From: Sipunculus nudus
Lineage: Eukaryota; Annelida; Sipuncula; Golfingiida; Sipunculidae
NCBI GenBank assembly: GCA_026874595.1
Contig: CM049315.1
Location: 11,718,664-11,782,663, forward strand
Reading direction: 5' to 3'
DNA: 64,000 nucleotides
Shown: piece by piece, positions 3,495 through 62,651 of the stretch
Layout of the letters: each line of letters starts with the position of its first letter
Position numbering within the stretch: the stretch's first letter is position 1
Position numbers and translations under genes: made by a program
The notes under the pieces: generated by a model
Database searches by the model: none
The model's input: only the letters and a program-made list of their open reading frames with translations
What the model was told of the DNA's origin: nothing

Positions 3495-4700
3495 AGTCAC
3501 GCGGTAAAATGAAATTCTTAGGGGAGAATGGGAGCCGCATCCCGCGCGCGGTATAGTATTGCAGCGAAAAATTGGAATGGATTGTATCACACTGTATATT
3601 AAAGTAAGGGACAAGTGTTGCCGCCGTTCTTAGATTCCTTGGTGTCAGTCTTGATCTTTGTCTCAGATCCCTTGGTATCCGTCGGATTCATGGTCTCATA
3701 TTCCTTGAGGTGACTAAAATGATAATATATCTGAGGGTACATTTTAGCCACCATCCACATATGTACCTGGGTGGGATTCTAAGCTTGGTATGATGTGTTT
3801 CTATAAAAGGGAGAAAACTCATCCATATTATGGGTATCTCATATTTTATTAAATAAAATTTTGTTTTGATAAGCTAATTGCATAAGTTTTCAGTATAAAT
3901 ATGTCTACAACCCTCATAAAACCGGACAAATACACAAAGCATTGTTGCCATTAAGTATACATTCTTACTGCTTCTGGCATGGAGGTTATGAGCAGTACGA
4001 CCCGTGTCTTCATAGACCAAAATACGCAATAACTAAAGTAAAATGCACTTACAGTTGCCAATATGTTGCAGTTGTATTGAAAATGAAATACTTTGCCATT
4101 GTGAAAATACTTTTGCCATTGTGAAGAAGTTTTAATGTCACCCCATCCGTAAAACTGATAATAAAACTGCCTTTTCCAGAAAATACGATCGTATCGTGGT
4201 CCAACACCACATCTCTATATATGGGGAGGCGACGAAACAGTCGTCCGTTATCGATGCAAGACGTTTCGTCGCTGCAGGCGGCTACCTTGATATCAGACTG
4301 TGACGCGTAAAAAATATTCCCCACACAAAAGTGCCATTAATACACGTGTGCGATCACGTGTGCGATGCTAATGAATATTGATAGGGCTACCAAGCACTTT
4401 GCTTATTGTTAAGTTTTTGAAATTCATGCACCTCATGAATAGTCAGTAGCTTTCAGTGGAGTCCAGTATAAAGAGGCTCCACTCTTGTGTCCATATCACA
4501 CTTGAACTGAAGCCGCCAATGAGGAGAGATCGCCAGCAGAACAGAAGTATTGGTTTCATATTCCTTGATGTCAGTCTAAGTTTTGGTTTCATATCTCTTC
4601 ATATTAGTCTTGGTCTCATAGCTCTTGATCTTAGTTTCGTTTTCATATCGCTTGATATCAGTTTTGGTTTCATAGCTCTTCATATCAGTCTCGGGTCTCA

Positions 4701-9554: not shown

Positions 9555-10752
9555 GTTCAAAAACGTATAAATCGATCTAATATCATCGTTTTAATGGACA
9601 ATTACAGTATAATAGCATTATCTCTATTTTAAGACTGCGGTGGTGGCCATCATGGATTCCTTTGGGTCACAGGGTTCATTAAAAAAATATAACCTGCATT
9701 CATTCATCAGCTTAAGTGCAAAGAAAATGAAGGCAAGCACTATCTTATTCAATTCCTCAGATCTTTGTCTCATATCCCTTGGTATCCGTCGGATTCATGG
9801 TCTCATATTCCTTGAGGTGACTGAAATGATAATATGTCTGAGGGTACATTTTAGCCACCATCCACATATGTACTTGGGTGGGATTCTAATCTTAGTATGA
9901 TCTGTTTCTATAAAAAGGAGAAAACCAATCCCTATCTTGGGTATCTCATTTTTTATTAAATAACATTTTGTTTTGATAAGCTAATTGCATAAGTTTTCAG
10001 TTTAAATATGTCTACAACCCTCATAAAACCGGACAGGTACACAAAGCATTGTTGCCATTAAGTATACATTCTTACTGCTTCTGGCATGGAGGTTATGAAC
10101 AGTACGACCCATGTCTTCTTAGACCGAAATACGCAATAACTAAAGTAAAATGCACTTACAGTTGCCAATATGTTGCAGTTGTATTGAAAATGAAATACTT
10201 TTGCCATGGTGAAAATACTTTTGCCATGGTGAAGAAGTTTTAATGTCACCCCATCCGTAAAACTGATAATAAAACTGCCTTTCCCAAAAAATACGATCGT
10301 ATCGTGGACCAACACCACGTCTCTATATATGGGGAGGCGACGAAATAGTCGTCCGTTAACGATGCAAGACGTTTCGTCGCTGCAGGCGGCTACCTTGATA
10401 TCAGAGTGTGAGGCGTAAAAATATTCCCCACACAAAATGCCATTAATACACGTGTGCGATCACTCGCTTGTTTTTACTCAGTGTTCTGGTTGAGCGAGCG
10501 CTCATTGTAATTCGGCACACCGGAATCGATCGCTCGGGTCCGTAAGTTCGTAGGTCACCAGGTCAGAGGTGAAGGGGCACCCGGCCTCTGTAAATGGTTT
10601 AGTAAGCGTGTCGAAGCTAATTAATATTCATAGGGCTACTAAGCACTTTGCTTATTATTAAGTTTTTGTAATTCATGCACCTCATGAATAGTCAGTAGCT
10701 TTCAGTGGAGTCAAGTATAAAGGGGCTCTGTTCTTGTGTCCATATCGCACTT

Positions 10753-11660
10753 TTTGTATAATAAAAAAAAAAGAAAATATACAACATACACACATACATA
10801 AAAACATACAAATACATATTGAACCTTCACAATAATACGATCATTTTCAGCATCCTTTTTAACTAAGTTTGCCTTTTTGATAAGATTAAAACAAATATTT
10901 AGTTACTCTTCGAGTATACACAGTATTGGTGCCCACTTAATATGGTGTTGGTTTAACTTGTCATTTTTTATTGCAATTTCTTTTTCAATATACAATGTGG
11001 CTTTAATAAAATATTGAACCCCCCCTTTCGTTGGCTTTTCATTACCACATCTAGTAATATATAAATACCTTTTTACCATCAATGTTAAAAAGTTCATCCC
11101 GTTATCATCATCGCACCCTAAAATAACATTCTCCACAGACCATCTGTATGTGGAACTGACTGAACCATGTTGCTTTAACTCCAACAATATATCTCTCCAC
11201 AAAAGTTTCGTGAAATCACATTTCCAGAAAAAGTGTAATAATGTTTCTTCACAAGATTTGCAGAAGGAACACTTATTATGATCTATTTTCTTAATCCTGA
11301 ACAAGAAAGGGTTCAGTGTCACTCTGCGGTGCAGGATTCTAAACTGAAAATATTGCAGTTTACTAGATATTGTTAATGAATATTAATTTTCAAATCCTTT
11401 TAATATCTTATTTTCTATTTCACCATTAAATTCTTTGTTCCATTTTAAAATCGTATTGTATGGTTTTCCTGAAATTTTCGTTGATATATCTGCATACACT
11501 TGTTTTGTGCCATCTTTTTTGGTTATAAGTTTATCCACTAAACTAATACTTGGCGATAATGCTGTGAGCCTATCGTGACTTTTTATAATACTTTCCCATG
11601 TTTCTGGAATTGCCCTTAATAGTCCATGGTAGCTAAGGAAATCAATATGTACATTATGTA
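10753..11660 (-). mobile_element. 5'-truncated LINE with 12-bp target-site duplication
   Basis: 908 bp flanked by perfect CATATCGCACTT (10741-10752 and 11661-11672). The sister segment at 4492 has the empty site. Two minus-strand reading frames remain: one with IDFLSYHGLLRAIPETW and one ending in the cysteine/histidine motif CSFCKSCEETLLHFFWKC, followed by a W-rich helix. This is the zf-RVT C-terminal domain of L1/Tx1-type reverse transcriptases. The endonuclease and catalytic domains are absent, so it was dead on arrival. Confidence 0.82.
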
Positions 11661-11707
11661 CATATCGCACTTGAACTGAAGCCGCCAATGAGGAGAGATC
11701 GCCAGCA

Positions 11708-12190
11708 GAACAGAAGTATTGGTTTCGTATTCCTTGATGTCAGTCTTAGTTTTGGTTTCATATCTTTTCATATCAGTCTTGGTCTCATAGCTCTTGATCT
11801 TAGTTTCGGTTTCATATCGCTTGATATCAGTCTTGGTTTCATAGCTCTTGATCTAGTTTTGGTTTCAAATCTCTTGATCTAGTTTTGGTCTCATAGCTCT
11901 TGATCTTAGTGTTGGTCTCATAGCTCTTGATCTTAGTTTCGGTTTCATAGCTCTTGATCTTAGTCTTGGTCTCATAGCTCTTGATCTTAGTTTTGGTTTC
12001 ATATCTCTTTGATCTTAGTTTTGGTTTCATATCTCTTGATCTTAGTCTTGGTCTTTGGTCTCAGATCTCTTGATCTCAGTCTAGAGTCTCAGATCTCTTG
12101 ATCTCAAGCTTAGGGTCTCCGATCTCTTGATCTCAGTCTAGGGTCTCATGATCTCGGTCTCGAGTCTCTTGGTCTCCGGCTTGGGTCTCA
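11708..12190 (+). repeat. 27-bp minisatellite, copy B (short version at 4550-4700)
   Basis: Repeats of GGTTTCATAGCTCTTGATCT plus TAGTTTT, drifting to GGTCTCAGATCTCTTGATCT at the right side. The period is 27 bases, so minus-strand frames show a nine-residue repeat (IKSYETKTK) that is not evidence of a gene. Confidence 0.85.
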
Positions 12191-13910
12191 TATTTTTTTT
12201 TTCTAAGTCTCCGCGGCACCCCTCTTTGTGGCGCTCCTCTTCTCTCTGTGGCGACCCATTTTTTCTTCCCCTTTTCTTCTCTGTGGTGCCCCTCTTTGTT
12301 GCGCTTGTGGCGCCCTTCTTTGTGGCGCTCCTTTTCTCCTCTCTGTGGCGCCCTCTCTTTGTGGCGCCCCATTTTTTTTTCTTCCCCGTTCTCTTCTCTG
12401 TGGTGCCCCTCTTTATTGCGCTTCTTTTTGTGGCGCCCCATTTTTTTTCTTCCTCTCTTTTTCATTCTGTGGCGCCTCTCTTTTCTTCCCATCCCCTCCC
12501 CCCTGTTATTTCTTCCCCACTTCTTCACTTGGCGCCCCCTTTTTTTCTCTCTCCGTGGCGCCCCTCTCCCCCCTCCCCTTCCCCCTTTTTTCTTCTTCCC
12601 CAATTTTCTCTGTTGAGCCCGTTTCTTGTGGCGCCTCTCTTTTTCTCTTCCCCTCTTCTCCCGCCCTCCCCATTCCCCTTTTTTCCTTCCTCAATTCTCT
12701 GTTGAGCCCCTTTCTTGTGGCGCCTCTTTTTTTCTCTTCCCCTCTTCTCCCTCTGGCGCCCCTTTGTTGTGCCCCTCTTTTTTTCTCTCTTTTTTTTTCT
12801 TCCCCTCTTCTCCCATGGGCGCCTCATTTGCGCCCCTCCTCTTCTCTTTGTGGCGCTTTTTTTTTCTTCTTTTCTTCATACTGTGGCGCCCCCCCCCCCC
12901 CGTCCCCTTCTCTCTGTGGCGCCCCTCTTTTATCTTGTTCCCCAGTTTCTTCTTCTCTTCTCCCTGTGGCGCCCCTCTTTTTTTCTTTCCCTCTTCTGCC
13001 TGTGGCGCCCCTTTTTCTCTTCCACTCTTCTCCCTGTGGCGAACCTCTTTTTTTTCTTTCCCTCTTCTTCTCTCTGTGGCGCCCCTCTTTGTGGCGCCCT
13101 CTTCTCTGTTCTTCTTTGTCGCGCTCTCTCTCTTTCTCTGGCGGCCCACGAAAATTCTTCCCCTATTCTTCTCCCTGTGGCGCCCCTCTTTGTGGCCCCC
13201 TTTTTGTGGCGCCTCTTTTTTTTTCTTGCCCTCTTCTTCGCCCTGTGGCGCCCCTTTTTTCCTTCTCCCCATTTCTTCTCTCCGTGGCGCCCTCTCTCTC
13301 TCTGTGGTGCCCCTCTCTTTTACTTCTTCCCCTCTTTTTCTCCCTGTGGCGCCCTCTTCTCTCTGTAGCGGTCCCCGAAATTTCTTCCCTCCCCCTCCCC
13401 TTTTTTCTTCCCTTTTTCTTTTCTCTGTTCTGCTTCCTCTCTCTCTCTCTCTGTGGCGCCCCTTTTTTTTCTCTCTCTCTCTGTGGCGCCCCTCTTTCTC
13501 TCTCTGTAGCGCCCCTCTTTCTTTCTTCCTTTTCTACCCCTTCCCTTTTTTCCTTCCCTTCCCCTCCCCTTTTTATCTTTCCCTCGTTGTGGCGCCCCTT
13601 TCCCCCTCCCGTTCCCCTTTTTTCTTCCCGGCTTATCTCTGTTGCGCCCCTTTTTGTGGCGCCCCTCTTTTTTCTTCCCCTCTTCTCCCTGTGACCCCCC
13701 TCTTCTTCTCTTTGTGGCACCCCTCTGTTTATCCGCCCCACTTTTTTTCTCCCCCTTATCTTCTCTCTATGGCGCCCTCTCTATGGCGCCCTCTCTCTCT
13801 CTTTCTCTTTCTGTTGCGTCCCTCTTTTTTCTTCTTATTCTCCCTGTCGCGCCGCTCTTTGTGGCGTCCTCTTTTCTGTTCTTCTCTTTAGCGTTTTCTT
13901 CTCTGTAGCG

Positions 13911-13955
<45 letters not shown>

Positions 13956-14890
13956 GCGCCCCTCAAAAGTTCTTCCCCTCTTCTTCTCCCGGTGGGGCCC
14001 CTCTTGGAGCCCCTCTTTTTTACCTTCCACTACCCTTTTTTCTTCGTCACTTCTTCTCCCTGTGGCGCCCCTATTTTTTCTTCTTCCCCTCTTCTTCTTT
14101 CTGTGGCGCCCCTCTTTTATTCTTCTTTCTCTCTTCTTCTCCCTGTGGTGCCTCTCTTTGTGGCGCCCTTTGTTCTTCTCTGTGGTGCCCTCTCTCTCTC
14201 TCACTGTGGCGTCCATCGAAAATTCTTCCCCTCTTCTTCTCCCGTTGGCGCCCGTCTTTGTAACGCTCCTCTTGTTCTCTCTGTGGCGCCCCTTTTTTTT
14301 CGCCCCCTTTTTTTCTTACCTTTTTCTTCATTGTGGCGCCCCTCTTTGTGGCGCTTCTTTTTGTGGCGCCTCTTTCTTTCTTCCCCTCTTCTTGGCGCCA
14401 CTCTTTTTTTTTTTTTCTTCTTCACTTCTCCCTGTGGCGCCCCTCTTTGTAGCACCCGTCTTCTTCTCTCGGTGGCGCCCCTCTTTTTTTGCGCCCCTTC
14501 TTTTCTTCCTCTTTCTTTTTCTTTGGCGCCTCCTTTCTTTTTCTGTGACGCCCCCCCCCTCTCTCTCTTTGTAGCACCCCAATTTTTATCCGCCCCCTTA
14601 TTTTTCTTACCCTTTTCTTCTCTCTGTGGCGCCCTCTCTCTCTGTGGCGATCCTCTTATTTCTTCTTATTCTCCCTGTGGCGCCTCTCTTTGTGGCGCCC
14701 TCTTCTGTTCTTCTCTGTAGCGCCCTCCCTCTCTCTCTCTCTCTCTCTCTGTGGCGCCCCTCTTTGTGGCCCCCTCTTTTATCTTCTTCCCCTTTACTTC
14801 TCTCTGCGGCGCCCTCTCTCTCTCTCCCTCTGTGGTGCCCTTCTTTTTTCCCTCTCTTCTTTTCCCTGTGGCGCCCCTCTTTATGGCGCT
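12191..14890 (+). repeat. Polypyrimidine array punctuated by GTGGCGCC (copy B)
   Basis: Same composition and motif as the array in copy A, with GAAAATTCTTCCCC landmarks near 13150 and 14217 and a pure (CT)n run at 13911-13951. Confidence 0.9.
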
Positions 14891-15376
14891 ACATCTCATA
14901 TAACTCATTTTTAGTTGCAATTGACAGAACACATTCAAAAACATTTAAATCGATCCCACTTTATTAGGTTTTCAGGGACAATTACAGAATAATAGCATTA
15001 TCTTTATGTTAAGACTCCTGTGGTGGCTATCTTGGATTACTTGGGGTCACAGGGTTCATAAAAATATATGACCTGCATTCACTCATCAGCTTATTAAGTG
15101 CAAATAAAATGAAAGCAAGCACCATCTTATTCAATTCCTAAGAAAACGTCGTTCTGTTACACGTGCAAGTACACTTTATCCCTAACACAATAATTCCAAT
15201 GGGTGAAGACAGCCATCTTGGATTTTCGGTGTCAGAGGGATCTGAAAATTTCTTACCTTACATTTTCCATTAGTTCATATCCTGTTTATGCTAAATCAGT
15301 CATTTTTGCAATTTGGGCATCAAATTCCTACGGAAATACATCCCCGTTTACACTATAACACCGAAAAATAACCTGA

Positions 15377-16156
15377 AGCAGCTATGTCAAACCACTGCTG
15401 AGATATAAGTGATATTATCCCACAGCAGACAAACAGGCAGACACTGTGCAAAAATGGTTGCAGGTGGCGCCACCAGTTTTGCGTATGATAAAGAGCCATG
15501 TGAGATTTATACACATGCAAAATTTTTTTGCAACATTTTAGTCAAACCACTGCCGAGATATAGGTGATTTTATCCCACGGCAGACAAACAGACGGGCGCT
15601 GTTTTGCGTATGATAAAAGCTGTGCGAGATCTATTCACATGCAAATTTTCAGGAAGATACGTCAAACCAGTCCAGAGATATAAGCATGGATGTCTGCAGC
15701 GTTGACGTGACTGTAGGTGGCGCCACCTGTCATAAAATCAAGAAAGCTATCCAGGATGTATACGCATGTCGAATTTCAGGTGAATTAATCAAACCACTGC
15801 AGAGATATGAGTGATTTTAACCCAAGGCAGACATACAGATGGACACTGTGCAAACATGGTTGCAGGCTGCGCCACCATTTTTGTGTATGTTATAAAGCAA
15901 TCCAAGTGCTACATTTGTGCAAAATATTTTTCCTGATCGGTCAAACGGTTCCCGAGATATGTGGGTTTATGTGTGGAAGCAGATGCACAAATGGACGCTG
16001 GGCAACGTCAATTGGTTAGGCACCAGTTCACATGTGACCCGATAATTGGTGTAAGTTTCGGAAAAATCAGTTGAGTAGTCTCAGAGGAGTTCTACGGAAA
16101 CGAACGCGGTGGCGGCGGCAGCGGAACCCGGTCAAACTTCTTTTTTGCGGATACAA
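15377..16156 (-). mobile_element. Truncated Helentron-like element (H1)
   Basis: Only the 5' part (in element orientation) is present: it begins at 16156 with TTGTATCCGC and breaks off near 15377, without a CTAG end or hairpin. The body matches H2/H6, including GGTGGCGCCACC at about 15464 and 15716. Confidence 0.75.
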
Positions 16157-21599: not shown

Positions 21600-23460
21600 C
21601 CAGTATTTACTGAAGGTACCCACAGTGGTATTTGCTGTAGATAACCCACAGTGTTTTTTTTTTAGATAACCCAGTGGTATTTGCCATAGATAACACAGTG
21701 GTATTTGCTGTAGATAACCAACAGTGGTAACTGCTGTAGATAACCCACAGTGGTAACTGCTGTAGATAACCCAGTGGTAACTGCTGTAGATAACCCACAG
21801 TGGTAACTGCTGCAGATAACCCAAAGTGGTAACTGCTGTAGATAACCCACAGTGGTAACTGCTGTAGATAACCCACAGTGGTAACTGCTGCTGATAACCC
21901 ACAGTGGTAACTGCTGTAGATAACCCACAGTGGTAACTGCTGCTGATAACCCACAGTGGTAACTGCTGCTGATAACCCACAGTGGTAACTGCTGTAGATA
22001 ACCCACAGTGGTAACTGCTGCAGATAACCCACAGTGGTAACTGCTGTAGATTACCCACAGTGGTAACTGCTGTAGATTACCCACAGTGGTAACTGCTGTA
22101 GATAACCCAGTGGTAACTGCTGCAGATAACCCACAGTGGTAACTGCTGCAGATAACCCACAGTGGTAACTGCTGCTGATAACCCACAGTGGTAACTGCTG
22201 CTGATAACCCACAGTGGTAACTGCTGTAGATAACCCACAGTGGTAACTGCTGCTGATAACCCACAGTGGTAACTGCTGTAGATAACCCACAGTGGTAACT
22301 GCTGTAGATTACCCACAGTGGTAACTGCTGTAGATAACCCACAGTGGTAACTGCTGTAGATTACCCACAGTGGTAACTGCTGTAGATAACCCACAGTGGT
22401 AACTGCTGTAGATTACCCACAGTGGTAACTGCTGTAGATAACCCAGTGGTAACTGCTGCAGATAACCCACAGTGGTAACTGCTGCAGATAACCCACAGTG
22501 GTAACTGCTGTAGATAACCCACAGTGGTAACTGCTGTAGATAACCCACAGTGGTAACTGCTGCTGATAACCCACAGTGGTAACTGCTGCTGATAACCCAC
22601 AGTGGTAACTGCTGTAGATAACCCACAGTGGTAACTGCTGCTGATAACCCACAGTGGTAACTGCTGTAGATAACCCACAGTGGTAACTGCTGTAGATTAC
22701 CCACAGTGGTAACTGCTGTAGATAACCCACAGTGGTAACTGCTGTAGATTACCCACAGTGGTAACTGCTGTAGATAACCCACAGTGGTAACTGCTGTAGA
22801 TTACCCACAGTGGTAACTGCTGTAGATAACCCACAGTGGTAACTGCTGCAGATAACCCAGTGGTAACTGCTGTAGATAACCCAGTGGTAACTGCTGTAGA
22901 TAACCCACAGTGGTAACTGCTGTAGATTACCCACAGTGGTAACTGCTGTAGATAACCCAGTGGTAACTGCTGTAGATAACCCAGTGGTAACTGCTGTAGA
23001 TAACCCACAGTGGTAACTGCTGTAGATTACCCACAGTGGTAACTGCTGCTGATAACCCACAGTGGTAACTGCTGTAGATAACCCACAGTGGTATTTGCTG
23101 TAGATAACCTACAATGGTATTTGCTGAAGATAACCTACAATGGTATTTTCTGTAGATAACCCACAGGGGTTTTGCGGCAGATAACCATCAGTGGTATTTG
23201 TGTAGATATCCTACAAGGGTATTTGCTGTAGATAACCCACAGTGGTATTTGTTGTAGATAACCCACAGTGGTATTTGCAGTAGATAACCTACAATGGTAT
23301 TTGCTGTAGATAACCCAGAGTGGTATTTGCTTAGATAACCCACAGTGGTATTCATTATAGAAAACCCAAAGTGGTATTTGCTGTAGATAACCATAGTGGT
23401 AATTGCTGAAGGTGACACACATTGGTATTTGCTGCAGATAACCAGTGAAATTTGCTGTAA
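21600..23460. repeat. 26-bp satellite array with higher-order structure
   Basis: About 70 copies of GATAACCCACAGTGGTAACT plus GCTGTA. Edge copies read GGTATTTGCTG and are diverged, while central copies are nearly identical. A 24-bp monomer lacking CA starts at 21765, 22101 and 22437, exactly 336 bases apart (12 x 26 + 24), and again at 22851. All three minus-strand frames are open with a 26-residue period, an artefact of the repeat. Confidence 0.93.
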
Positions 23461-26400
23461 ATACCATTTAGTCAGTTTTTATCAGCACACAAACCTGCAT
23501 TCATTGAGATACCTCAATAAACAAACCAAGCTTCACCAGTGGCAATCTAGACATACAAATTATCACAGGCAGCAGTACTGAATAGAATTATATATATAAT
23601 AACTTGTTTTATTACTATAATCAACAAATGAACACTTGTCTTATTTTTGTCCCCATCTTATGCGTGCAACAACAATGCCAACTTATTGCTCTGGGTACCA
23701 AGATCTTGATATAAAGATATCAAGTTGCTAAAACTAAAACTGCAAATTTCTAAACCTTATGTACAACACCTTGGCATTTACATACTCATTTAACATAACA
23801 TACAGGTGATAAAATTATAACAACCAAACAAAAATTGCTTTTCTTAAACTAAATAATAATCACTGCAATTATTCACACACAGATTGTTCAAGGCCCACAT
23901 TAAACAATGTATGCTTCTCCCAACATCAGCCTCTTCAGTACCAGTATTTGATATATTGTTCTAGCATTGGAGAGGTGGTTATAAATACACGTCATGAGAT
24001 AGCTCTTATGAATATTCATGTTTTGATGTGATAAGTACTGATTATTAAATCAAAGCAAAACACTCCAGATTATATCAGTATATAGGATATAATTTCTCAG
24101 GAGTACCAGTAAATTATGTTTCCATAATATTGCACCCCAAAATTAAAAAAAAATGTGACTAAAATCAAGGAAACAGAAGACTAAATACAGTTATACCAAG
24201 CATTTGTGACATCACATAGGATGTCATTTGTAAACATTAAGCAACAAGATAAAAAAATATTAATATTCCATGTTGCTTGCCTCACTGAGCAATATTATTT
24301 ACATCTCATAAATATTTACAAGGAGAGATCCCACATCTAGCCTTCCAGTGCCCAATATAGACCATTCTGTAATCAATATGTATGAATGGTCATCTGTGCA
24401 ATGAGGTCAGAGGTCAGGTGTATTGTAACAGCAGGGAACAATTTATCCAATAAGCTAGTATGAGTTAGCACATTATAATCACAGGCGGCCTGCAAAATAT
24501 TCAGTTATACAATTTATAATTTTATCCAAACATCAGAAACACAGATACACTTGGTTTATTCATTTATTCAGTTTTATGACATGAACACACACATACATGT
24601 GTGTTTATTTTATTGTCTTTTTTATTCATGTATATTAAAAAAAAATTTACTTTTCAAAGAATCAGAATAAAGCTGCAAAATATCTATTTCTATCTTCAGA
24701 AGAAAGGGTTGTCTTTTTAACTTTTTAACAGAAGTCTGTTTATTCAACTGTATTATCAATCTTCATATATCCAACTGGACATCCGACCCTCTGAAAATAC
24801 TTTTGGGGAAAAGTATTCTAATGAAAATACTTTTGGGGAAAAGTATTCTAATGATGTTAATGTCTCTTCTAGATATATGTGACACTGAAGATTTACAGAT
24901 GTTTAAGACCAAGAAAAGTATTTGTTGAGGAGTTTCAGTTATAAAGATTAACAAAAACCCAACCCTACCAATAAATAACACATGGCATTTCAATTACAAG
25001 GTTAATTACACCAAAGCACTGATAACTTGTCTTGAATATAAGGCAAACTTAATATAAACATTGGTACCCTGAACACAACAGTCATAGAACAGATCTTATG
25101 GTGAACGATGCCAGAATAAAACATCTCTGTACGTCGCTGCAAATAACAACTATGAATTTCATAAAAACTTCATTTACTTATGTTATTGATTTTTACTAAT
25201 ATAAATAACATTGGTTGGGAGGGGGCAGATCTTACATTTATAAGCATACTTCATTCCTTGAGCTAAATCACACAAAAACTTAGTTTTGCAAATCTACCGA
25301 ACAACAGAAAGTTTTCAGTGTAATAACGCAAGTGCTCCACAGCACAGTTCTCCAGGTAGCCTAAAGAAAAAACTGCTCCGTGTTCTACAACAACAAAAAA
25401 AGAAGAAAACTGTGCATGTAAAAAGATTCATCTTCATGTTTCTAAGATGAAGAAAACAAAACTATGCAGAAACAAAGTAATAACTACCATATTTTCCTTT
25501 TTTTAATCGCCACAGCCATAAAATGAAACCCGCTCAGTCAAACTCTTAGTTGATGAACGGTCAATCAGTACTCAGTGTTTCACAGCATCAGCTGTCATAA
25601 TTATACAGAAGCAAGAGATACTCTTATTTCATTGTAAACAACAACACACTCAGAGTGCCATGAACATTTACTGACTATGGACTGAAGCATAACAGGAGAA
25701 CATATACAAGGACAGGATAACACGACCTGAGTGAGTATCAAGTCCATCCTAAGGTTACAGGTCTGGATATTGATCAAATACAAAATCTGGTCCCTTTCAT
25801 GAAAAAATACTCTTATATAACAACAATTTTGAGAACACCAATGTTTACATCACATAGCTTGTGCTATTTACTATGAATGCTAATTTCTTCATCATAACAT
25901 ACATAACACTGAAAAATAACCTGAAGCCCATTGATATTAACAGTAACAAAATCCAGAACACACAGCCACACAGACATTTCATTTATGGCCAGGACATACT
26001 CTTAAGAGAGTAACTTGGTAATAAAACATATATATGAGATACATATCACAACATTATGTTTGGACAGTTAAACTATCGCATTTCATGAAGTATTTTAGAT
26101 ATTTCATAATAAATTATAAGGGAAAGGCAACATGTATTCACAATTCTGGACTTGTTCATTCACTACTGAGATTACAGGTGTGGTTGAATTTGCCATAATT
26201 ACTAAAGAATCAGAAATAAAGAATCAACTTTATATAGGATCATATACCCACCCTGCAAGGTGGCTGAAATTTCAGAAAAATGTAAAAGAACATGTTAAAA
26301 TTACCCTGCATGTAATAAGCTCATGCCTACCTGGTTCACCACAGTATAACACTTACATCATGATATTTGTTCATTTATTTAAGAGTTGCTTTATGAAGTA

Positions 26401-27603
26401 GACCAATAATTCTCTTTTGGTTTTGAAGGTAAGTTTTAAAGTAATAACTGGTAGAATATCATAGAATATACTGTGTACTGATGATTCATATGAACCTTGT
26501 GGCCCAGTGGGTCTTTAACCATTAAATATACTTCTTTTACTTTTGAAACTACATGCCCTGGGCCTCTGGGCCCCTTAAAATTTCAAACTCTTATGCTTAA
26601 GACACTGATTAAATGCATTAAACATATATGCATATTTGTGCATGTGTCATAATAATTATTGGTAAATTCACAATCAATTAAAATAAAAAATTCCTCTTAA
26701 TTCCATAATGGCCATAACAGACACAGACTGTAGTATCAGGCAAACTATTTTATACCACAGAACAACACCTCTGTGTCACTGAGTTTCAAGTTGCAGAGAA
26801 ATCAAGAGTAGGGCCTTGTCAGTGAAATAACATGGTGTGAACCTACCACGTAGCCATCCAATAACTGCAACTCACTCTTTACAAGAAAGCTACCATCTGC
26901 AGTATTCACATAACAACTCTCAAATGTGATAGACTGTTACCTGTCACTGATTTTCAATATTCAAATTTTCAAATAATAGCTTTTACCATAGTATCTTGGG
27001 CCACAATATATTATATTTAAGAAATGCTTTAACACTATTTAGGAATTCCTTCAGTGCCAACTGGAAAATTATTATATTTTAATCTTTTTTTAATAATCAA
27101 ACCTTAGGTTTACTTAAACATAATACTTGATTTAGAAAACTGGAAATAAAACAGAGACATTTGGTGATGTATATTCTTTGGTGTCTTCAGATTATTAACA
27201 ATAATTTATATGTTTAAAATATGTTTGGACATCATATTACCAGATCAAGCATAGTTTGTGCTTTAAACACAGCTTAAGTAATGACTTGGTTAAAAAAATA
27301 ACTTTTTTCATTTATTATCTTAATGTCAGCTAAGGGAATCATTTAACCTGTCAAAAAAACCTATCATCTTTGTTTCTTTTTCTATAATTGTGACGGTGCT
27401 GATATGGCCCCTGCAAGGGGATCATATTAAACATGGACTATCACTTTCTTAAATATACACACATTATTTCATTGGTCTACATGCCATGTTAAACATGCTT
27501 ATTTAAACTTCACATATACTTATTACATATGAAAATAATATGCCTAGAATAAAAAGATTTTTGTGTTTCAAAACATTAATGATTTCTTTTTAAGTAATAT
27601 CTA
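23461..27603. other. 3' flank or long 3' UTR of the NIPA-like gene; no coding signal
   Basis: AT-rich throughout. A 30-base direct duplication (TGAAAATACTTTTGGGGAAA onward) lies at 24792-24851. It could include an extended 3' UTR of the transporter, which cannot be decided from sequence. Confidence 0.45.
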
Positions 27604-27609
27604 TTTATT
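27604..27609 (-). terminator. Possible polyadenylation signal of the NIPA-like gene
   Basis: AATAAA on the minus strand lies about 85 bases beyond the second stop codon. It is the first canonical hexamer noticed there; the region is AT-rich, so chance matches are common and longer 3' UTRs are equally possible. Confidence 0.25.
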
Positions 27610-27692
27610 CTCTGTATATAATTTATCATAACATCTCATGCCTTGTAACTATCACCAATATCAGTTATGATATTTAGGATGTTAATAAAATG

Positions 27693-27917
27693 CTAGTTCT
27701 GAGACAACATGTTGTCCCATGAGGACTGGCGATAGTGTTTGGAATTACCACGGCCATTGGAGCTACTCCTAGAGTCCTGCTCAGTTTGAAACCCACCCCA
27801 CGATTCCTTTCTGCTGTGAGAACGCCCCGGTGCTGGCCCATTAGGTTGTGATAGAGTGCGCTTGTGCCTAGGTTGGAACGATGCTACGTTACCGTTCGTC
27901 CTAGGGGGCTCCTCTAG
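27693..27917 (-). other. Candidate stop-codon readthrough extension of the NIPA-like protein (74 codons)
   Basis: Directly after the TGA the same frame stays open for 74 codons and ends at TAG (27693-27695). The stop context is GAA TGA CTA GAG, exactly the TGA-CTAG readthrough motif known from metazoan and viral genes. The predicted tail is hydrophilic, Ser/Arg/Asn-rich and basic. It contains phosphosite-like RTLSQP, RKESW and RQSSW and finishes SSWDNMLSQN. The stretch is clearly more GC-rich than the AT-rich DNA beyond it. No intron of plausible size could remove the TGA. Readthrough is inferred; a recently gained stop, an assembly base error or ordinary 3' UTR remain possible. Confidence 0.6.
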
Positions 27918-28558
27918 TCATTCGTGGCCAACCTTAGAGAATGTTACATCGGTGTTAAGCTCAGAATCACCTCGACCATTTTCAATATTATCCAGCAATG
28001 CTGCCATATCTGAATTTTCACTATACGAGCTCACACTACCATTTCCACCACTTGTGAGATCTTTCCTATGTAATTTTGGTAAATTTTTCAAAGAAATATC
28101 CATATCTTTAAAGGCTTGCAGTACAAAAATACCACACACTATTGTTAAAAATCCACATATATTACCCACAATATCTTCAGGGCCTAGTTTACCCCATTCT
28201 TTAAACAAAATAGCTGATGCTAAAATTACAAACGTTGTAAATATAACATAAAGTATTGGTGTGACCACCGAGGTGTTGAAGACATCCAAGGCTTTGTTCA
28301 GGTAGTTCATCTGTACTGTAATACACGAAGCTATGGACAGGAGAATCACCCATGTCAGCCAGTTTGTCAACTGGTTGTCTCCAGCAAAAGTCTGTTTTAA
28401 GGCCACACCGAGGCCTTTACACCCCATGACGGACAGCGAGCCGATCGTCCCGGTGATGGTGATGTATACTAATGGATTACTAAGGCCGTAACGAGGGCTG
28501 TAGTAAAAGATGAGAATAATGGCTCCCGACACAATTGTTATCACGTAAATGATGAACA
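27918..28558 (-). CDS. NIPA2-like: NIPA-like gene, exon 6 to the annotated TGA stop
   Basis: The last coding exon has 212 sense codons and starts after CCTTTTTCAG. It carries the last five or so membrane segments: [64 protein letters not shown] and [18 protein letters not shown] hydrophilic cytosolic tail of about 60 residues follows (LPKLHRKDL, a Ser/Asn-rich stretch, an acidic patch) and ends [29 protein letters not shown] and SAILFKEW are diagnostic. The stop codon context is unusual; see the adjoining extension. Confidence 0.94.
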
Positions 28559-31500
28559 CTGAAAAAGGAAAAACAGAAAATTGTACAAATGTGAACTACC
28601 AGAATAAAATTATTAAGAAAAAAATAAGATTAAATATAACAGTGAAAATATGATACATTGTTAATGAGTAAAAACCTAAAAGGGTGTCAAATAAAAGCAC
28701 TAACTGCTGTCAAGTTATAAAACTTCATTTCCCTAAAAATTAATTTCTGAATGTAACAAATTCAACAAAACAATGCAGACAGCACTTGTGATAAAAAGAA
28801 AGTGATACAGGTATCATAAGATGTCAATATATCAATAAACTGTCAATATCTGATGATCCTAGATACAGCATGTAAGTCAAACTGTCATTGGTCTCAATGA
28901 TTTGAAAAGTATCTGTTATTATCTAGAGATAAATTTCCTTTTTTTTTTAATCTTTAATATAAATTTTTAATAAAATAAATTTTATAACCTGGATGGCAGG
29001 ACATTTGTTTGTCTTTCTACAAACAAAGAAGACCATTAGCATGAAATCTACAATAAAATCAAATATACCTGAACATATCGCTGTATGTTTTGATCATGAG
29101 ATGGTATACTGTTACTACCCTAACTGAGACAGAATTATGCATGGTCTCACTCTGTTTGTTCTGAGGATGATGTATATTATTTTACCTGGGTCACAGAGTA
29201 GTAGTAATACATCTGTCTCTGGTTTGACTGAACATGATATAAATAACATACTATGGTTCAGATAATGGGCTCACGTTACTCACTTGGGTCAATGAGTTTG
29301 GAGGCCAGTTCATCCATAGACTTGAGCTCCTGCTCTTTAGGAGAGTGGATGACGACAACAGTGGAGCCAAGAATACACACTAGGCAGCCGATTTTACCCA
29401 GGATGTTGAGTCTCTCATTCAGCATGCGGGAGGCTAATACAGCACTGTAATATTAGAGTTAAGTTAAAATATGGGCAACTTAAAGTAATCAGTTTAACGA
29501 GGTATCATGGCTTGACAGATTTAACACTTAAATACGTAGGCCAGAATATCTACATACTCTGTTGTAACAATGTTTACTGATAAAACAAGAGATCATCATA
29601 CATCTAATGATAAATCAATGGCAGGTCTTTTATTCAATCTTAAATATGCTTCCACAACAGAGAGTTTAACATATTGATTATACAAGTAATAAAAGGTTAA
29701 AAAAGGCAATTTCTCAAGTTAACTATCTGTGACAAAAGTCAGTCCGTCTTTTACAGTTCTAATATCTAGTTTGCTTTCTAATTTTCTCAACTTCTGCCAA
29801 GAGAGTACCAAAATTTAGCAGCCTCTGCAGGCAAAAGATAGCCTTTCCAATTGGCCAGCGTATGGTGGTTAAGATCTTGGAAAAGAGTCTTTGGACAACA
29901 GATCAGTTTGTACAAAATATGAATTTACAACCTTACAAAACAAAACCCACAATTATAATATCCCCACAAGCCTGCATTGACACACTTAGTTACAGAAACT
30001 GAAAGTTCTTCCAAGTCCATAATATATTCAATACTGTAAAAAAACACCCACCTGACCAGCACGCTGAGGGCCCCTAGAGGAGTGACCAAGGTGGCCGGAG
30101 CAAAGGCGTATGCCGTAAAGTTGGCAATCTCACCAACAGCCACTGTTTGAAGAAAGCAGATATATCCAGTATTTAGCCATGTCTATTGTAAGTTCATAGT
30201 TGACATTCTTTTACTTTCTCGTGGCCAGTTCCTTAGCCTATTTTAACAACAAGCAACATATTTTACAAAATTACACAGAACAGCTTACAATACATATATG
30301 ACTCACACTGACTATGCATTTTAAACTAGAATACCGGTAGTCCACAAGCGACTATGTGTATCTACCAAAATTAGAGGGGAACGGGTGAAGTGAGGCATGG
30401 ATTGAGTAGCCAGGGGAAATAGAGTGAGGTGTGTTGCATATTAGCATGGATGTCTGCAGCCGAAACGTGTATGTAGGTTGTGCCACCTACCACAAATCCA
30501 GAAAGCTGTCCAAGTTGTATACATATGCAAAATTTTAGGCAGAAAAGTCAAACCACTACAGAAATATGAGTGATTTAAGCCCACAGCAGACAAACAGACA
30601 GACGCTGTGCAAAAATGGTTGCAGGATGCCCCTCAAGTTTTGTGTATAATAAAGAGCCATGTAGGATCTATACACATGCAAAATCTTGGCCCAATCAGTC
30701 ATACGGTTCCCGAGATATAAGCTTTGATGTCTGCAGCGTAAACTAGAATGTAGGTAGCGTCACCTGTCATAAAATCAAGAAAGCTGTCCAGGATGTAAAA
30801 ACCTGCAAAATTTTAGGCAGTTATGTCAAACCACTACAGAGATATGAGTGATTTTAGCCCATGGCAGACACATAGACTGACGCTGTGATAAAATGGTTGC
30901 AGGTGCCCCCCCCCCCCAGTTTTGTATATGATTAAGAGCTATGTGAGATCTATACACATGCAAACTTTTGGCCCAATCGGTCAAACGGTTCCCGAGATAT
31001 GAGCTGGGATGTCTGCAGGGTAAACTAGAATGTAGGTGGCGCCACCTGTCATAAAAACAAGAACGCTGTCCAGGACGTATAAAACTGCAAAATTTTAGGC
31101 AGCTATGTCAAACCACTGCTGAGATATAAGTGATATTATCCCACAGCAGACAAACAGGCAGACACTGTGCAAAAATGGTTGCAGGTGGCGCCACCAGTTT
31201 TGCGTATGATAAAGAGCTATGTGAGATTTATACACATGCAAAATTTTGGCCCAATTGGTCAAAGGTTCCCGAGATATAAGCTTGGATGTCTGTAGCATGA
31301 ATGTGAATGTAGGTGGCGCCACCTTTCATAAAATCAAGAAAGCTATCCAGGATGTATACTTGTGCCGAATTTCAGGTGAATTAGTCAAACCACTGCAGAG
31401 ATATGAGTGATTTTTACCCAAGGTAGATGAACAGATGGACACTGTGCAAACATGGTTGCAGGTGGCGCCACCATTTTTTGTGTATGTTATAAAGCCATCA

Positions 31501-33578
31501 AAGGGCTACATTTGTAGACAATTTTTTTCCTGATCGGTCAAACGGTTTCCGAGATATGTGGGTTTATGCATGGAAACAGATGCACAAATGGACGCTGGGC
31601 AGAGAGGAAAGATCAGAGGTCAATGCAAATTGGTAAGGCACCAGTTCACATGTGACCCGATAATTGGTGCAAGTTTCGGAAAAATCCATCTAGTAGTCTC
31701 AGAGGAGTCCTCTGGAAATGAACGCAGCGGGGGCGGCAGAACCCGATCAAAAACATAGTATCCACAAAACTTTGTTTTGGCGGATACAATAAATCTGTAT
31801 ATATATACTGGTCCATTGTTTTTTACTATTTTTTAGAATAGTAGGAAAAACTATGAATTTTTTTTCATGGATTAAATTAATTATAAGATTTATTCTTAGG
31901 CTTATTGAGATAAATTTTTTACTAATTTTCATAGTTTAGTTCATGAGCTGTTTACTTGTTTATAAATCTACACAATTTCAGTTGCACATAACTTAACAGG
32001 GTGTGATTAATCTCTTGCAAACAACTTGCACCCTTGTGAAAATTTTCTGCACAATAAAAACACTTACTGAGTAACATGCCGGCCCACCACAGCCATTCCT
32101 TGAGGTAACCGTAACCTCCCTGACCTGTCAAGATGGGAAGAACATGTATGAATATACAGATAATGATGTATTCATAAGCTGCCTCACAACATCTTCATCA
32201 GTATTGTTAACAATATATTGCACTTAAAGAAATACATAATACAGTAATGAAATACCTCTCAGCTGTGCTGTACTGCAATTAAACTAACAGTAAATCTGCT
32301 ACCTACATGTGCTCCATTACCTCTAATATTATTATTAATGTCTATCAATTGTAGCTATATCTCCTGCATACCTGAAATGACCTGTACACATACATGCTTA
32401 CAATGTCCAGAGAACTGCTTACAACAGGACTCTCCGGTAAAGATATGTGACATTTTCGATTGTGAAGGTAATAGAACTGAAGCCTTGGAATGCAAGGACT
32501 TTTCTGGGCCCTCAAGAATTTGAAATATATTTTCAAACCTGCAGACCTGCATTATGGTCAATATGGTGCCAATATATGATAAGATAGCATATAAGAGAAG
32601 ATATCATTTATTGCCAATGAAGAATTTTGGTTTAAAACAACTGACATATGGCATAATTAAGAAAAATAATTCTGTATTAATGAATTAGCATATGGTTAAT
32701 GACTAGAAAATACATTAAAACATTACATCTTATTCTTGAACAAATGCACTGCACTTGGCATGAATGCACTGGTTTTGCAAATAATTGACTGTATCTATAT
32801 TCCAGATTTTTGCCATCCCTTTGCTTCAGTTAACATATATTGACTTCTCATGAAGATTTTAAACTTTTAAACAGGACTTATTTGAATATATACAGAATTT
32901 TGGTAGTGGATTTTTATTGTATAACATACTTTCTGTTTTCCAATTAATGAACCTTTTTGGTGTTTTGCAATGTACCAGTGCTATATGTAGATATACTGAG
33001 ATTAATAAAAGTATAATACTTAAAAAAAAAAGGTTTTAAACTTGAGACTGGTTAGGGAATAAAATGATCAGAGCCTCAAGATAACTGTAAACACATCTAC
33101 AGCCAGAACAAGCACATGTGTGTACTTGAATGCTGAACAAACAAAATCATAATTACTTTTGTTATTGTGTTATGCTAATCTTGAACTTGACATTACTTAC
33201 CTGCTCTATGTTGAAGCTTCAAGAGGCCCTTCTTTTTAAATATAAAACTGGTTCCAATAAAAGCACTGGAACTCATGGCCAGGAACAAGCCAACGTAAAA
33301 GTCGAGGCCCAGTTTTTCTTCCTCCATACCTGTCATATTTGATGGACTTCCAGTGGTGAAATTAGTCTGGTTTGTGAAGTTTAATGCAAACACTGGCTGC
33401 AAAAAGATTGTGTAAGAAGACCATTAACATTAGAAAGTATGTAGTGCCATGCATAACCTGTTGAAAAGAAACTAAACAGACTGGTTCCCAGTATAGTTTA
33501 ACATTCCTTTACCATAAACAGACGGAGTTCCTGCCTCACTTAGTACCTCATTTTTGTAGTATATACAGATGTGCACAC

Positions 33579-33669
<91 letters not shown>

Positions 33670-36600
33670 TCTTACCTATACTGAAACACAGAAATGACAT
33701 TAAATTTGGTTAAAACAATCAGAAGTAAACATCCAACAGAAAACAGAACCTGACACAAACATGACATAAAGAACAAAATTCTGATCATCTTAAAACATGG
33801 AATTTAATTTAACTTTAATTGTAACATCCAAAATACTAAATTCAGTGTGGTCCTCTACTGTTTTAAAATTGATAGCACCAAGTTATAACTAACACATTAC
33901 TCGAGGAAGCATGTAAATACTTCATGCAAGTTGGGTTAATTTTGATAACATCTGTGTATTTGTCAACTGTTACCAACTCTAGCTTAATTTATCAACTTTA
34001 TAGTATGTTAACTTTATAAACTTTATAGTATATTAATTTTATAAACTTAACAGTGTATATTCACTTTCATATATCTGTAGTAGGTCAAATATAACAAGAT
34101 ATTGTGATGCTAACAATATTCATATTTTGCTATAAGATCTAGCCCCACTATATGCCAATGAATTCATTGAATGAGAAAAATACATAAAACTGATCATTGT
34201 ATTTAACATTTGTAACACAGTACTATATATTCTACTTGTATAAATTTTTGAAGCAAAATATCGGATTCAGATATGTTTTATGTATTAAAAAAAAAAAACT
34301 GTTCACCATATGCATCACAGCTCAGAGCAAAATTACAGGGGCCTTGAGAATTTACTGTCAAAGCTAAATGCTTGGGAGCACAATTCATGCCTCAAGTGAT
34401 CTTGAATATACCAAGACAAGGATGTGTTTTAAAGCAGTGTATGCAGGTGACAAGCATACCTGATGGGAAAATTTGTAATTCAATAAGTGTATTTTAATGC
34501 TACATGGGTGTTCATCTGGAATTCAGGTATACAGAGGAAAGAGGGTGCATGTCCAACAAAATAAGTCGCTTACTGAATGTCTCTGATTTTATAATTTCTC
34601 ACAGCATTATTGAGTGTCCAAATTTAGTTTGAGCAAATTTAAAGGTTATGACAACATAATCATTGATCACAGTGGTTACACTCTGAACACTGTGATGTCA
34701 TATAATCACTGTGATGTCAGAGATTCACTGTGATGTCACAGAATCACTGCGATGTCATAGGTTCACTGTTTGTCATAGAATTACTGTGATGTCATAGATT
34801 CACTGTGATGTCATAGAATCACTGTGATGTCACAGAATCACTGTGATCAGATGTCATAGATTCACTGTGATGTCATAGGCCCCACCAGAAAATACATGAC
34901 TGGTTCTGGTTCCAGGAAACCATCCATTTTATAATCAGCGAACCAAACTGGTTTTGGCCAAACTGTGAAACCATCACCGGAGTAGATTTTGGTTTTGCCT
35001 AAACTGTCCTCTCGATAACTATTCTGCCATGATGGTAAAATTGGGCTAAATTGGTGCAATTCTGTTAATTAGTTTTTTAATTGATCCTGTTGATGCTATT
35101 TAGAGTTTAATAGGCAATAATTGAGGTATAAACAGTCATTTGGAAGTGTCTTGAATTCAATATACCCTCTTTTAGCGCTGTACAGCTAAAGATGAGACAC
35201 TATGTTATGTCCATATTATTTGACATCTGGATGTGTGGTAGCTAGGACACAGGGATAGTCTATTTTCATCAAAATTGCAATATTAATTGGCCAGTCACAA
35301 CCGATAATGCTCTCACTAAACATGGCCAGACATGGATCTCTAAATTATGATAACATTTTCATCATTATTTGATTAAATTTATTGATTAATTTCCAATATT
35401 ATTATAATCTTATCTATTAAAACCAAAACCATCCACTTATTAATACAAGGCAAACCATACAGAACTGGTTTTCTTGGAATCAAATCTGGTTTCGTATATT
35501 CAAGCAGGGCCACAGAATCAGTGATGCCACAGAATCACTGTGATGTCACAGTCTTACTCTGAATTAATTTTAATCACTGGGATATCACAGGCTTGTTCAG
35601 TGCAATATTACATCGAACATTATGGGGTTGATGACTGGAATATTTTGTTATCCAAAGTATAAAATATATTACATTTGTACACAAACAAGATAGGATAAGG
35701 CTAAATGCTGAATAAACATTTTCAGGATGAGCACTCACTAACCTTTGGTTTCAGATGTGTAGATGGATACAAGTGAGTTCAAACTGCACATACATTATAT
35801 GTATAAATAATCAAAGTTCATGTTAGGGCATGCTCTTTAATTTGAGCAGGTGGTGACATGTGCTGTGTTTTAATTAGTCAAATAAGCCCCATGTGGTGTT
35901 TTGATAATTAGTCAAATCAGCCCCCCCCCCCAACCTTTTGGTAACGGCTGCATGATCAACAACCACCACTCAGACTCAAGTCTGCCCTTTTCTGTTATGT
36001 GAGCATTCTCCTTTAAAGTGTTGAAATACTGTAAACATGCTTAAAATTATGTTACACATCTATGGAATAATTATATGAACTGTTTTTATTGGGATACATG
36101 TACATGTATATACAATTTGTATCAATAATTAATAGATACAGCTCATTAATCTTCTAACCCTTCCTATGGTAGTCTAATCTTGATTGATTTTCATATCTGG
36201 GAATGGGTTAAAGCTTTTTTTTTTTTTGCTGGTAGAAGGTCATGCTGGTGCAGGTCGTGCATGTACACTGGTTAATGTAATGATATGATTATAGGACAAG
36301 GGTCAGGTTTGCATATTGAGGTGGAAGAATTATGGAGGGAGGAACTAAGTTGGTATTTATCTATGGGGAGAGAGATAAAGGGGGCCTTAATATATACCGT
36401 CCTGACGAAGTTCACCTTAATGGTCTGCAACATGCTGAATAAAATAAAAAGTCCACAATGTTTATAATGGCCAATCTGGGGCACTAACAACTTACTAACA
36501 TAACACATTAATTTTCATCTTGTGGTGTGTCAGTTGGATTTATTTCTTGTTCAAACTGAGCACAAAACAAATGCATTAAAGCTTCAATTTCATGTAACCC

Positions 36601-39600
36601 AACTTAGAATAATATTTTGTCATTTATCTCATCAAGTTCAGCTGCATTTTTGTTTATCTAAAGTGACCAACAAACTGAATGTACTCTGAACTGTTTAGGT
36701 TATGAAGGCTCTTGTGTATAAGTGTATCCTCAAAAGACCTCAATACAGCTATCTTGTGTTTAAACAGTGGCATTAATTTATCTTCAAGGGTGGGGGATGA
36801 ATCCCAGACACATGCACACATACACACAAACACAGACACACACATATATATATGCATTTTTAGCATCTGTATGACACATTTCAAATATATACTAAATCAC
36901 ATTTCAAATATATTACAATTAAGTATAAGGTTTTAGAAAATAAGGTATTATGCTTCCAGAATAAGTTAATTCTAAACTAAATTTGGATATATTTCATAGT
37001 AAACTCATAAATGGAACCGAAGTCTATATACAGTTATTTTTTTTTTATATACATTTGATTTGCAACATATTAATATTATTCTCTGAATAGTGGGGGGATG
37101 ATTAAATTGACCATCCCCCTTTGCCAAAAGGTGTGTGTGGGGGGGATATATACCCCCCTCCCCTATATTGACACCCCTGTGTTTAAATATGGCACCCATG
37201 GGCCAGGATGCTCCCTTGGTGACTGTGAATTAATAATCTTTGAATCAAGTACTAAAACTTAAGGATAGAGGTAACCTTTCAAGTAGTCAACTTTGTTGAA
37301 GTAAATTCAGATTTTTATAAATATTTTTCCTGCATGACATTTATTTTTAGATTTAGCTACATTTACAAAAAAATTATTTTGAGTGTTTATCATTGGCATT
37401 TCATCAGCTGTATCACTTATTCAGTGGGTGAAAGCAAAAAAAAAAATACGGCAAGTTTATAATTAACATATACATGTACATACATACACTTCCCTATGTT
37501 ATCAGGCTCATGATTAACAATGGTGCCATTTATGAACTAACTTCCTTTATTTGCCATGTGAAAAGTGACCAGACAAAGACACACACCAACATAAACATCC
37601 CCAAACTAGAATACGGGTAGTCAACAAGCGACTACTTGTATCCATCGAAACCAGAGTGGGACGGGTGAAGTGAGGCATGGATTGAGTGGCAAGGGGAAAC
37701 AGAGATGTGTGTTGCATATTAGCATTGATGTCTGTAGATGAAATGTGTATGTAGGTGGCGCCACCTGCCACAAAATCTGGAAATTTATCCAAGTTGTATA
37801 CAATGGTTACGCATGATTGACAGGTCGGAAAGGTCCATTATAACATTTTAGGCAGATAAGTCAAACCACTGCCGAGATATGAGTGATTTTATCCCACAGC
37901 AGACAAACAGATGGATGCTGTGCAAAAATTTCGGGAGTATACGTCAAACCAGTCCTGAGATATATAAGCCTGGATGTCTGCAGACTGAACGTGAAAGTAG
38001 GTGGCGCCACCTGCTACATAATCAAGAAAGCTATCCAAGATGTATATACATGCAAAATTTTAGGCAGATATGTCAAACCACTGCCAAGATATGAGTGATT
38101 TTATCCCACAGCAGACAACCAGACAGATGCTGTGCAGGAATGTTTACAGGTGGCGCCACCAGTTTTGTGTATGGTAAAGAGCTATGCAAGATCTATACAC
38201 ATTCAAAATTTCAGGAGTATATGTCAAACCAGTCCTGAGATATACGCTTGGATGTCTGCAGCCTGAAAGTGAAAGTAGGATGCCCCATCTGCTACAAAAT
38301 CCACTAAGCTATCCAGGATGTATATACATGCAAAATTTTAGGTAGATAAGTCAACAGCTGCCGAGATATGAGTGATTTTATCCCACAGCAAAAAAACAGA
38401 CGGACGCAGTGCAGAAATGGTTGCAGGTGGCGCCAACAGTTCTGCGTATGATAAAGATCTATGTGAAATCTTAACACATGCAAAATTTCAGGAGGATATG
38501 TTAAACCAGACCTGAGATATGAACTTGGATGTCTGCAGCCTGAACGGGAAAGTAGGTGGCGGCACCTGCCACAAAATCAAGAAACCTATCCACGATGAAT
38601 ACACATGCAAAATTTCACATGGATAAGTCCATTCATTTCAGAGTTATGAGTGATTTTATCCCAAGTCAGATGAACAGATGGACACTGCAAAAATGGTTGC
38701 AGGTGGTGCCATCATTTTTTAAGTCAGTTATAAAGCTACCCAAGTGCTATATTTGTGCAAAATTTTTTTCCTTGTTAAACGAGTCCGAAGATATGTGAGT
38801 TAATGTGCAAGAACAGAAGAACAGATGGAAGCACTGGAGAAAGGAAAGGTCACAGGTCAATGCAAAATATTTTGACACCAGTTCACATGTGACCCGATAA
38901 TCATGTAAAGTTTCGGAAAAACTGTCCAGTAGTGTCAGAGTTCTATTCCTGAAAAGAATGCGGCGGCGGTGGTGGAACCCGGTCAAAAACATAGTATCCG
39001 CAAAACTTTGTTTTGGCAGATACAATGATAGATATTTATATCTGATATATACAGAATACCACATTATATATGTACTGCAAAAATACTTACTCCTGAATAC
39101 TGGAGTATTTCTAATGCATATTTGTAAAATAAAGGCACTCTTTATAATTACTTATACCAGTAAACTGCATGTTTCATAAAGGAAAGTGACATTCTATACA
39201 TAAACAAATGCATAAAGATAAACATCTGTATAAATACCACACAATATCACATGCTTATAAAGGCTGTACTATTGGTAAAGGTGTCATTTAGCTGATATTT
39301 TGCTGAGGCTTTTCTCATAGTCATGTAACCATATTGTGAATAATATAATTTTTCTATATTATAGAGGAGGTGGTGTATCAATATAGAAAAATAGGGTTTG
39401 TACATGGAACATATGTAACTAGATGCTCAAATGTCTTATTCCGTGCAAGATCTGCTCACCAGCTATCATGCTACTCATGGCATCGCTGACGTCACTGTGA
39501 AAACAATGTCCCGACTGAGAATTGTATATCAAAATTTTATGCTCTTATATTAGTTATAGATATGACATTATTCCATGAACAACCCTTATTTTTAAGCATA

Positions 39601-62617: not shown

Positions 62618-62651
62618 TGAATAGTTTTGTTATCATCTGTGTGCTTTATGT

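Follow-up and report, generated by a model that had tools for sequence, protein, structure and literature searches.

A UGA-CUAG stop in a NIPA2-like gene and a candidate readthrough extension with putative LATS/NDR sites

The question raised by this locus is whether all ribosomes that translate a NIPA2-like gene stop at its UGA codon, or whether some of them continue into the open stretch that lies directly behind it. The gene lies on the minus strand of the window, which is the whole 64-kb stretch of DNA analysed here, and was proposed in a preliminary description to encode a NIPA-like transporter. A Pfam search assigns its last exon to the NIPA family (PF05653, E 4.1e-54), and the full NIPA domain is accounted for, with PF05653 matched by four exons. 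Joining five exons, a lower bound on the exon count (at least five), gives a protein of 361 amino acids counted from the ATG at 33336, which is the first ATG used; a further 5′ exon is possible. The joined protein matches human NIPA2 with an E-value of 2.5e-124 (residues 11-354), and the proposed identity holds. On these alignments the gene at 33336-27918 (minus strand) is a NIPA2-type Mg2+ transporter, with its transport function predicted from sequence. The features of the locus are collected in Table 1.

Table 1. Features of the NIPA2-like gene and of the DNA 3′ of its stop codon, in coordinates of the window.
Feature	Position	Strand	Basis
NIPA2-like exon, first ATG used	33201..33336	-	Joined model; PF05653 match of the open reading frame
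NIPA2-like exon	32068..32124	-	GT/AG borders; human NIPA2 alignment
NIPA2-like exon	30052..30142	-	PF05653 search, joined model, human NIPA2 alignment
NIPA2-like exon	29284..29444	-	PF05653 search, joined model, human NIPA2 alignment
Last NIPA2-like exon, TGA included	27918..28558	-	PF05653 E 4.1e-54; aligned stop in nearest listed relatives
TGA-CTAG stop context after GAA	27914..27920	-	Sequence; matches context of readthrough genes in the available part of PMC4132726
In-frame extension, 74 sense codons	27696..27917	-	Translation; composition and motif tests
Predicted stem-loop, core starting 12 nt after stop	27867..27905	-	Folding and shuffles
First motif, HKRTLSQP (HxRxxSxP)	27843..27866	-	Motif search
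Second motif, HSRKES	27801..27818	-	Motif search
Third motif, HYRQSS	27720..27737	-	Motif search
Second stop, TAG	27693..27695	-	Sequence; best GC edge one base beyond, 27692
Candidate poly(A) signal, first AATAAA 3′ of gene	27604..27609	-	Motif scan alone

The last exon, read on the minus strand, ends with SKVGHE and then TGA (27920-27918), which CTAG (27917-27914) follows directly; the frame past the TGA holds 74 sense codons (27917-27696) before TAG (27695-27693), just as the preliminary description had stated. Relatives were sought with the last exon, and the best 120 of 661 matches were compared. P0001 and P0022, the nearest among the matches listed (75% and 73% identity over the aligned part), both terminate at the residue aligned with the NIPA2-like stop, with the ends NTDVTFTKPGME and NTDVTFTKPGRE; in longer form, P0001 ends INTDVTFTKPGME and P0022 ends INTDVTFTKPGRE. 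Other listed relatives have C-termini of the pattern [TP]FS[KQ]xG, namely ATFSKSG in P0009, ATFSQNG in P0018, ATFSQTG in P0021 and APFSQSG in P0019. By alignment, the NIPA2-like TGA is an ordinary protein end, and the gene model and the aligned stop in listed relatives show that UGA-CUAG terminates a genuine coding sequence. If the TGA were instead a sense codon misread in sequencing, or one that had only recently mutated to a stop, the actual or recent ancestral protein would continue into the extension, and long unbroken tails with HxRxxS do occur in the relatives P0025, P0028 and P0086. However, the stop position shared by P0001 and P0022 makes both a wrong base and a recent nonsense change very unlikely; P0009, P0018, P0019 and P0021 likewise stop after their similar ends, and when the end of the last exon was read through the stop and used as a query, no relative with a similar continuation was found (seven candidates, none significant).

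The sequence around the stop was described from the outset as a known readthrough context, and it does match both the genes studied by Loughran and colleagues (PMC4132726) and the CUA of the type II viral signal (PMC3542737), as far as the available parts of these papers describe them. Among 23 human UGA-CUAG stops, four have positive PhyloCSF and gave reporter readthrough of about 7-31%, according to the available part of PMC4132726. The context alone proves little, because the other 19 of the 23 are without positive PhyloCSF in the same account, a point that also favours a chance origin of the arrangement seen here. Two adenosines 5′ of a stop are stimulatory in yeast, according to a review (PMC3542737), and two adenosines directly precede the NIPA2-like UGA, with CUA directly 3′. 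TGACTAG occurs three times in 64 kb, against 2373 TGA triplets, and the other two copies have 46 and 31 open codons behind them.

The open frame itself had been given about a 3 percent chance in the preliminary description. This figure stands for uniform codons, but locally the evidence is weaker: the extension DNA is open in 1104 of 20,000 dinucleotide shuffles (5.5%), and at least 74 open codons follow 61 of the 2373 TGA triplets on both strands of the 64-kb window. Forward frame 1 over the extension stretch is stop-free beyond its codon 11. The 74-codon open frame alone is weak evidence and unremarkable, and the TGA-CTAG context is rarer than an open frame of such length. These figures favour the main rival explanation, which is chance: an ordinary TGA, a fortuitous CTAG and GC-rich untranslated DNA with one frame free of stops, frame 1 being nearly as open. 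With three TGACTAG copies for 2373 TGAs, several such stops would be expected to arise fortuitously in a large genome.

Chance must, however, also account for the polar composition of the extension, the GC edge at its end, the stem-loop behind the stop and, above all, three HxRxxS motifs. Polar or charged residues, glycine and proline make up 62 of the 74 residues, a proportion found in none of 3000 open shuffles, so that the extension is strongly hydrophilic as had been claimed. It is not basic, however, as the same description had it: its 11 lysine and arginine residues are close to the average of 10.5 for open shuffles. T stands at codon position 2 in seven extension codons, and 10 of 3000 open shuffles were as low. 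The maximum-likelihood edge of the GC-rich segment falls at 27692, one base beyond the second stop; edges from 27676 to 27749 are within 3 log units, an uncertainty of some tens of bases. The extension does differ in composition from the DNA that follows it. The RxxS-type motifs noted earlier are also real: there are six, a number matched in none of 3000 open shuffles and in 6 of 20,000 peptide shuffles. Three of the six belong to the more specific HxRxxS type.

While composition and motifs favour a coding extension, three-base periodicity, codon score and amino-acid score do not. The periodicity falls short of significance (405 of 3000). With the NIPA2-like gene alone as the coding set for both scores, the synonymous-codon score of the extension frame (8.2) is below that of frame 1 (9.1), and antisense frames reach 14.8; the amino-acid coding score is −5.8, unlike an average protein. 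The extension has no Pfam match up to E 1, a protein search with the extension alone found no homologue, and no relatives were found in the scanned genome and viral contigs. The lack of a codon-level signal and of a homologue in these searches both favour chance. Missing homologues are to be expected if relatives also hide an extension behind a stop, since such a segment, with no early ATG, would escape gene calling; they are equally expected under chance. A separate downstream open reading frame was rejected, as the only in-frame ATG is at codon 70 of 74.

Additional evidence for readthrough came from RNA folding. A 41-nt stretch that contains the predicted stem-loop folds with −15.5 kcal/mol, a value matched by 1 of 1000 shuffles, and among 91 overlapping segments covering the last exon and its 3′ flank, the only one with z of −3 or below is that at the stop. 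Shuffles that preserve the protein and the codon set matched the stem-loop in 6 of 1000 cases after correction over eight lengths. For single fold lengths, the numbers of matching shuffles out of 1000 were 20 (60 nt), 1 (70 nt), 2 (78 nt) and 32 (90 nt), and the signal is lost in longer folds (z of −0.37 at 120 nt, 0.17 at 141 nt and 0.18 at 150 nt). Equally stable folding is found in 37 of 867 stretches of the window with similar GC. The type II viral signal, as outlined in the available part of the review (PMC3542737), consists of UGA-CUA or UGA-CGG with a 3′ stem-loop, and UGA-CUA usually has its stem-loop about 8 nt 3′. The NIPA2-like stop resembles it in having UGA-CUA and a predicted stem-loop shortly 3′, and differs in belonging to a cellular gene and in a predicted core stem that starts 12 nt after the stop rather than around 8. 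The predicted stem-loop at 27905-27867 would count as supporting evidence for readthrough, not as proof.

The strongest burden on chance comes from the HxRxxS motifs, which take up all three histidines of the extension. At least three HxRxx[ST] matches occurred in 3 of 200,000 peptide shuffles and in none of 40,000 dinucleotide DNA shuffles; since HxRxxS was sought after the tails of relatives had been viewed, these figures are somewhat optimistic, although it is a single well-known consensus. The six-frame open reading frames of at least 40 amino acids (47,093 residues) hold 16 HxRxx[ST] matches, and the extension is the sole frame with more than one, while the 361-residue main protein contains no HxRxxS. 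The first motif, HxRxxSxP, resembles the Ser127 site of YAP, which has the same proline. HxRxxS/T was established on YAP and TAZ as the consensus of LATS/NDR kinases (PMC3849777, in its available part). The extension matches this consensus at three putative sites for a LATS/NDR substrate, as judged by motif. In its clustered HxRxxS it is like the LATS/NDR substrates YAP, TAZ and Kif23/CHO1, and in Kif23 one HxRxxS site is confined to the longer isoform (PMC4320110 and PMC3849777, available parts). YAP, TAZ and Kif23/CHO1, however, are not ion transporters and their sites do not lie behind a stop codon, whereas those of the extension are putative.

The same consensus is found in the ordinary tails of some related transporters. 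Tails were taken from the last FKD, FKE, FRD or FRE, or as the last 60 residues, and some include part of the last membrane segment. In the tails of the best 120 of 661 relatives there are 26 HxRxx[ST] motifs in 13 proteins, against 2.08 expected by shuffling, a count in which related proteins are counted more than once; the 20,747 residues that precede these tails contain none. The 13 motif-bearing listed relatives include two named spiders and the hemichordate Saccoglossus. It may be, to judge from these tails, that NIPA2 is more widely a LATS/NDR target. Among varied animals, the ordinary tails of P0003, P0006, P0056, P0066, P0087, P0059, P0050, P0079, P0120 and P0104 carry HxRxx[ST]; two spider tails contain HSRQNS, the hemichordate tail contains HSRSNS, and YHNRTSS[IY]S forms the C-terminus of five related proteins. 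HxRxx[ST] is absent from the tails of P0001 and P0022, and the readthrough hypothesis therefore predicts a hidden extension in these relatives too.

The closest parallels to the extension are the long uninterrupted tails of P0025, P0028 and P0086, with 6, 5 and 3 HxRxx[ST] motifs; they belong to the same transporter family and, unlike the extension, have no stop before their motifs. In a tree built from the NIPA2-like gene and 52 proteins hand-picked from the 120 listed, the three form one group (99/90), which the tree does not place firmly relative to the NIPA2-like gene. Single BLASTP comparisons of the extension with P0025, P0028 and P0086 gave E-values of 0.05, 9e-5 and 0.14, and the similarity was matched by 35, 17 and 34 of 2000 shuffles, respectively (26 of 500 for the best of the 120 tails). 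Overall similarity to these tails is thus marginal against shuffles, and suggestive at most. The motif order HxRTLS - PGR[ST] - HxRxxS[YW] is common to P0025, P0028 and the extension, and occurred in none of 200,000 shuffles, a post hoc figure as the pattern was written from the alignment. These shared motifs would represent family-typical tail content, and common descent of the segment is possible.

Three other routes might lead into the extension without leaky termination: splicing that bypasses the stop, conversion of UGA to UGG by A-to-I editing, and incorporation of selenocysteine. One predicted fold has the UGA paired within a stem, as an editing substrate requires, but the editable A is preceded by G, a neighbour that ADARs disfavour. 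Splicing around the stop was rejected by a simple consensus scan, which found no suitable acceptor (9 of 12 pyrimidines plus AG) in 27920-27693 and one weak donor-like site at 27970. A selenoprotein was likewise rejected, as no SECIS element was among the five matches up to E 5 in 25500-34000. Taken together, these routes are improbable.

The locus is best explained by readthrough at UGA-CUAG that yields an isoform extended at its C-terminus, and such readthrough probably takes place. In its favour are the stop position shared with the nearest listed relatives, the context together with the stem-loop, the GC edge and the HxRxxS cluster. The extended isoform of the preliminary description gains from the aligned stop, the predicted stem-loop and the motif cluster, but is without a codon-level coding signature. 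Chance is the less likely explanation on the joint evidence, and on balance unlikely, although the open frame by itself (5.5% of shuffles) would be insufficient against it.

Most ribosomes would terminate at the UGA and produce the ordinary NIPA2-type Mg2+ transporter. A minority would decode the UGA by a near-cognate tRNA, aided by the AA and CUAG that flank the stop on either side and possibly by the 3′ stem-loop; should the gene behave like the mammalian UGA-CUAG genes tested, the rate would lie between a few percent and some tens of percent. The readthrough product would gain one residue and a polar tail of 74 amino acids. The NIPA2 C-terminus is cytosolic, and LATS/NDR kinases would phosphorylate the three HxRxxS sites of the tail; 14-3-3 could then bind the phosphorylated tail, and trafficking or activity would be altered in the extended form alone. 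The full chain, in which the UGA-CUAG-hairpin gates a LATS/NDR (Hippo-type) input and only the readthrough isoform is phosphorylated and re-routed, is a tentative proposal and somewhat doubtful. It includes the equally tentative idea that a kinase/14-3-3 docking tail is constitutive in NIPA2 of some animal lineages and is here kept behind a leaky stop. The grades given to readthrough and to this chain are judgements, not computed values.

This model has parallels in mammalian OPRL1, OPRK1, MAPK10 and AQP4 (and also MDH1), which have UGA-CUAG, a purine before the stop and an in-frame extension (PMC4132726, available part). Three of the first four encode multipass membrane proteins, with extensions predicted to be cytoplasmic, in the same account. 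The NIPA2-like case differs in its gene family, in its invertebrate source and in the length of its extension (74 residues, against 13 in MAPK10; PMC4132726, available part). The available part of that paper also reports no conserved RNA structure for the confirmed mammalian genes, whereas a stem-loop is predicted here, and it describes readthrough measured in reporters, whereas the NIPA2-like case is known from its sequence. UGA-CUAG readthrough is a known phenomenon, and the NIPA2-like gene would be a new family for it. In the open-licence literature, searched by titles and abstract starts with molluscs and bivalves included, no report was found of readthrough in NIPA, NIPA2 or magnesium transporters. 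Among the matches listed from the same kind of search (open-licence literature, titles and abstract starts), there was likewise no report linking LATS or HxRxxS with readthrough, or of NIPA2 C-terminal tail phosphorylation. Two aspects may be new: the combination of UGA-CUAG with a predicted 3′ stem-loop in an animal gene, and an extension that would bear a kinase-site array constitutive in the same transporter of other animals.

If the proposal is true, stop-codon readthrough would act as a switch for the signalling tail of an ion transporter, and the tails of NIPA2 would become candidate LATS/NDR targets in several animal groups. The candidate extension would then carry a specific signal, namely three sites of a consensus found in the normal tails of some related NIPA2 proteins.

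Ten other open reading frames of the 64-kb window have no Pfam family at E 0.01. A 143-codon open frame on the plus strand (27820-28251), running antisense to the final part of the NIPA2-like gene and to part of the extension, is probably a by-product of composition. A CT-rich repeat region at about 4450-14924, with a recurring TGTGGCGCCCCTCTT unit, has mechanical open frames of up to 725 codons on the plus strand, and a tandem array at 21618-23443 consists of about 71 copies of a 26-bp unit. A satellite-like repeat of about 277-282 bp with a GGTGGCGCCACC palindrome occurs in both orientations at about 15378-16087, 30438-31737, 37716-38921, 59774-59939 and 61186-62618, and one of these blocks sits in an intron of the NIPA2-like gene.
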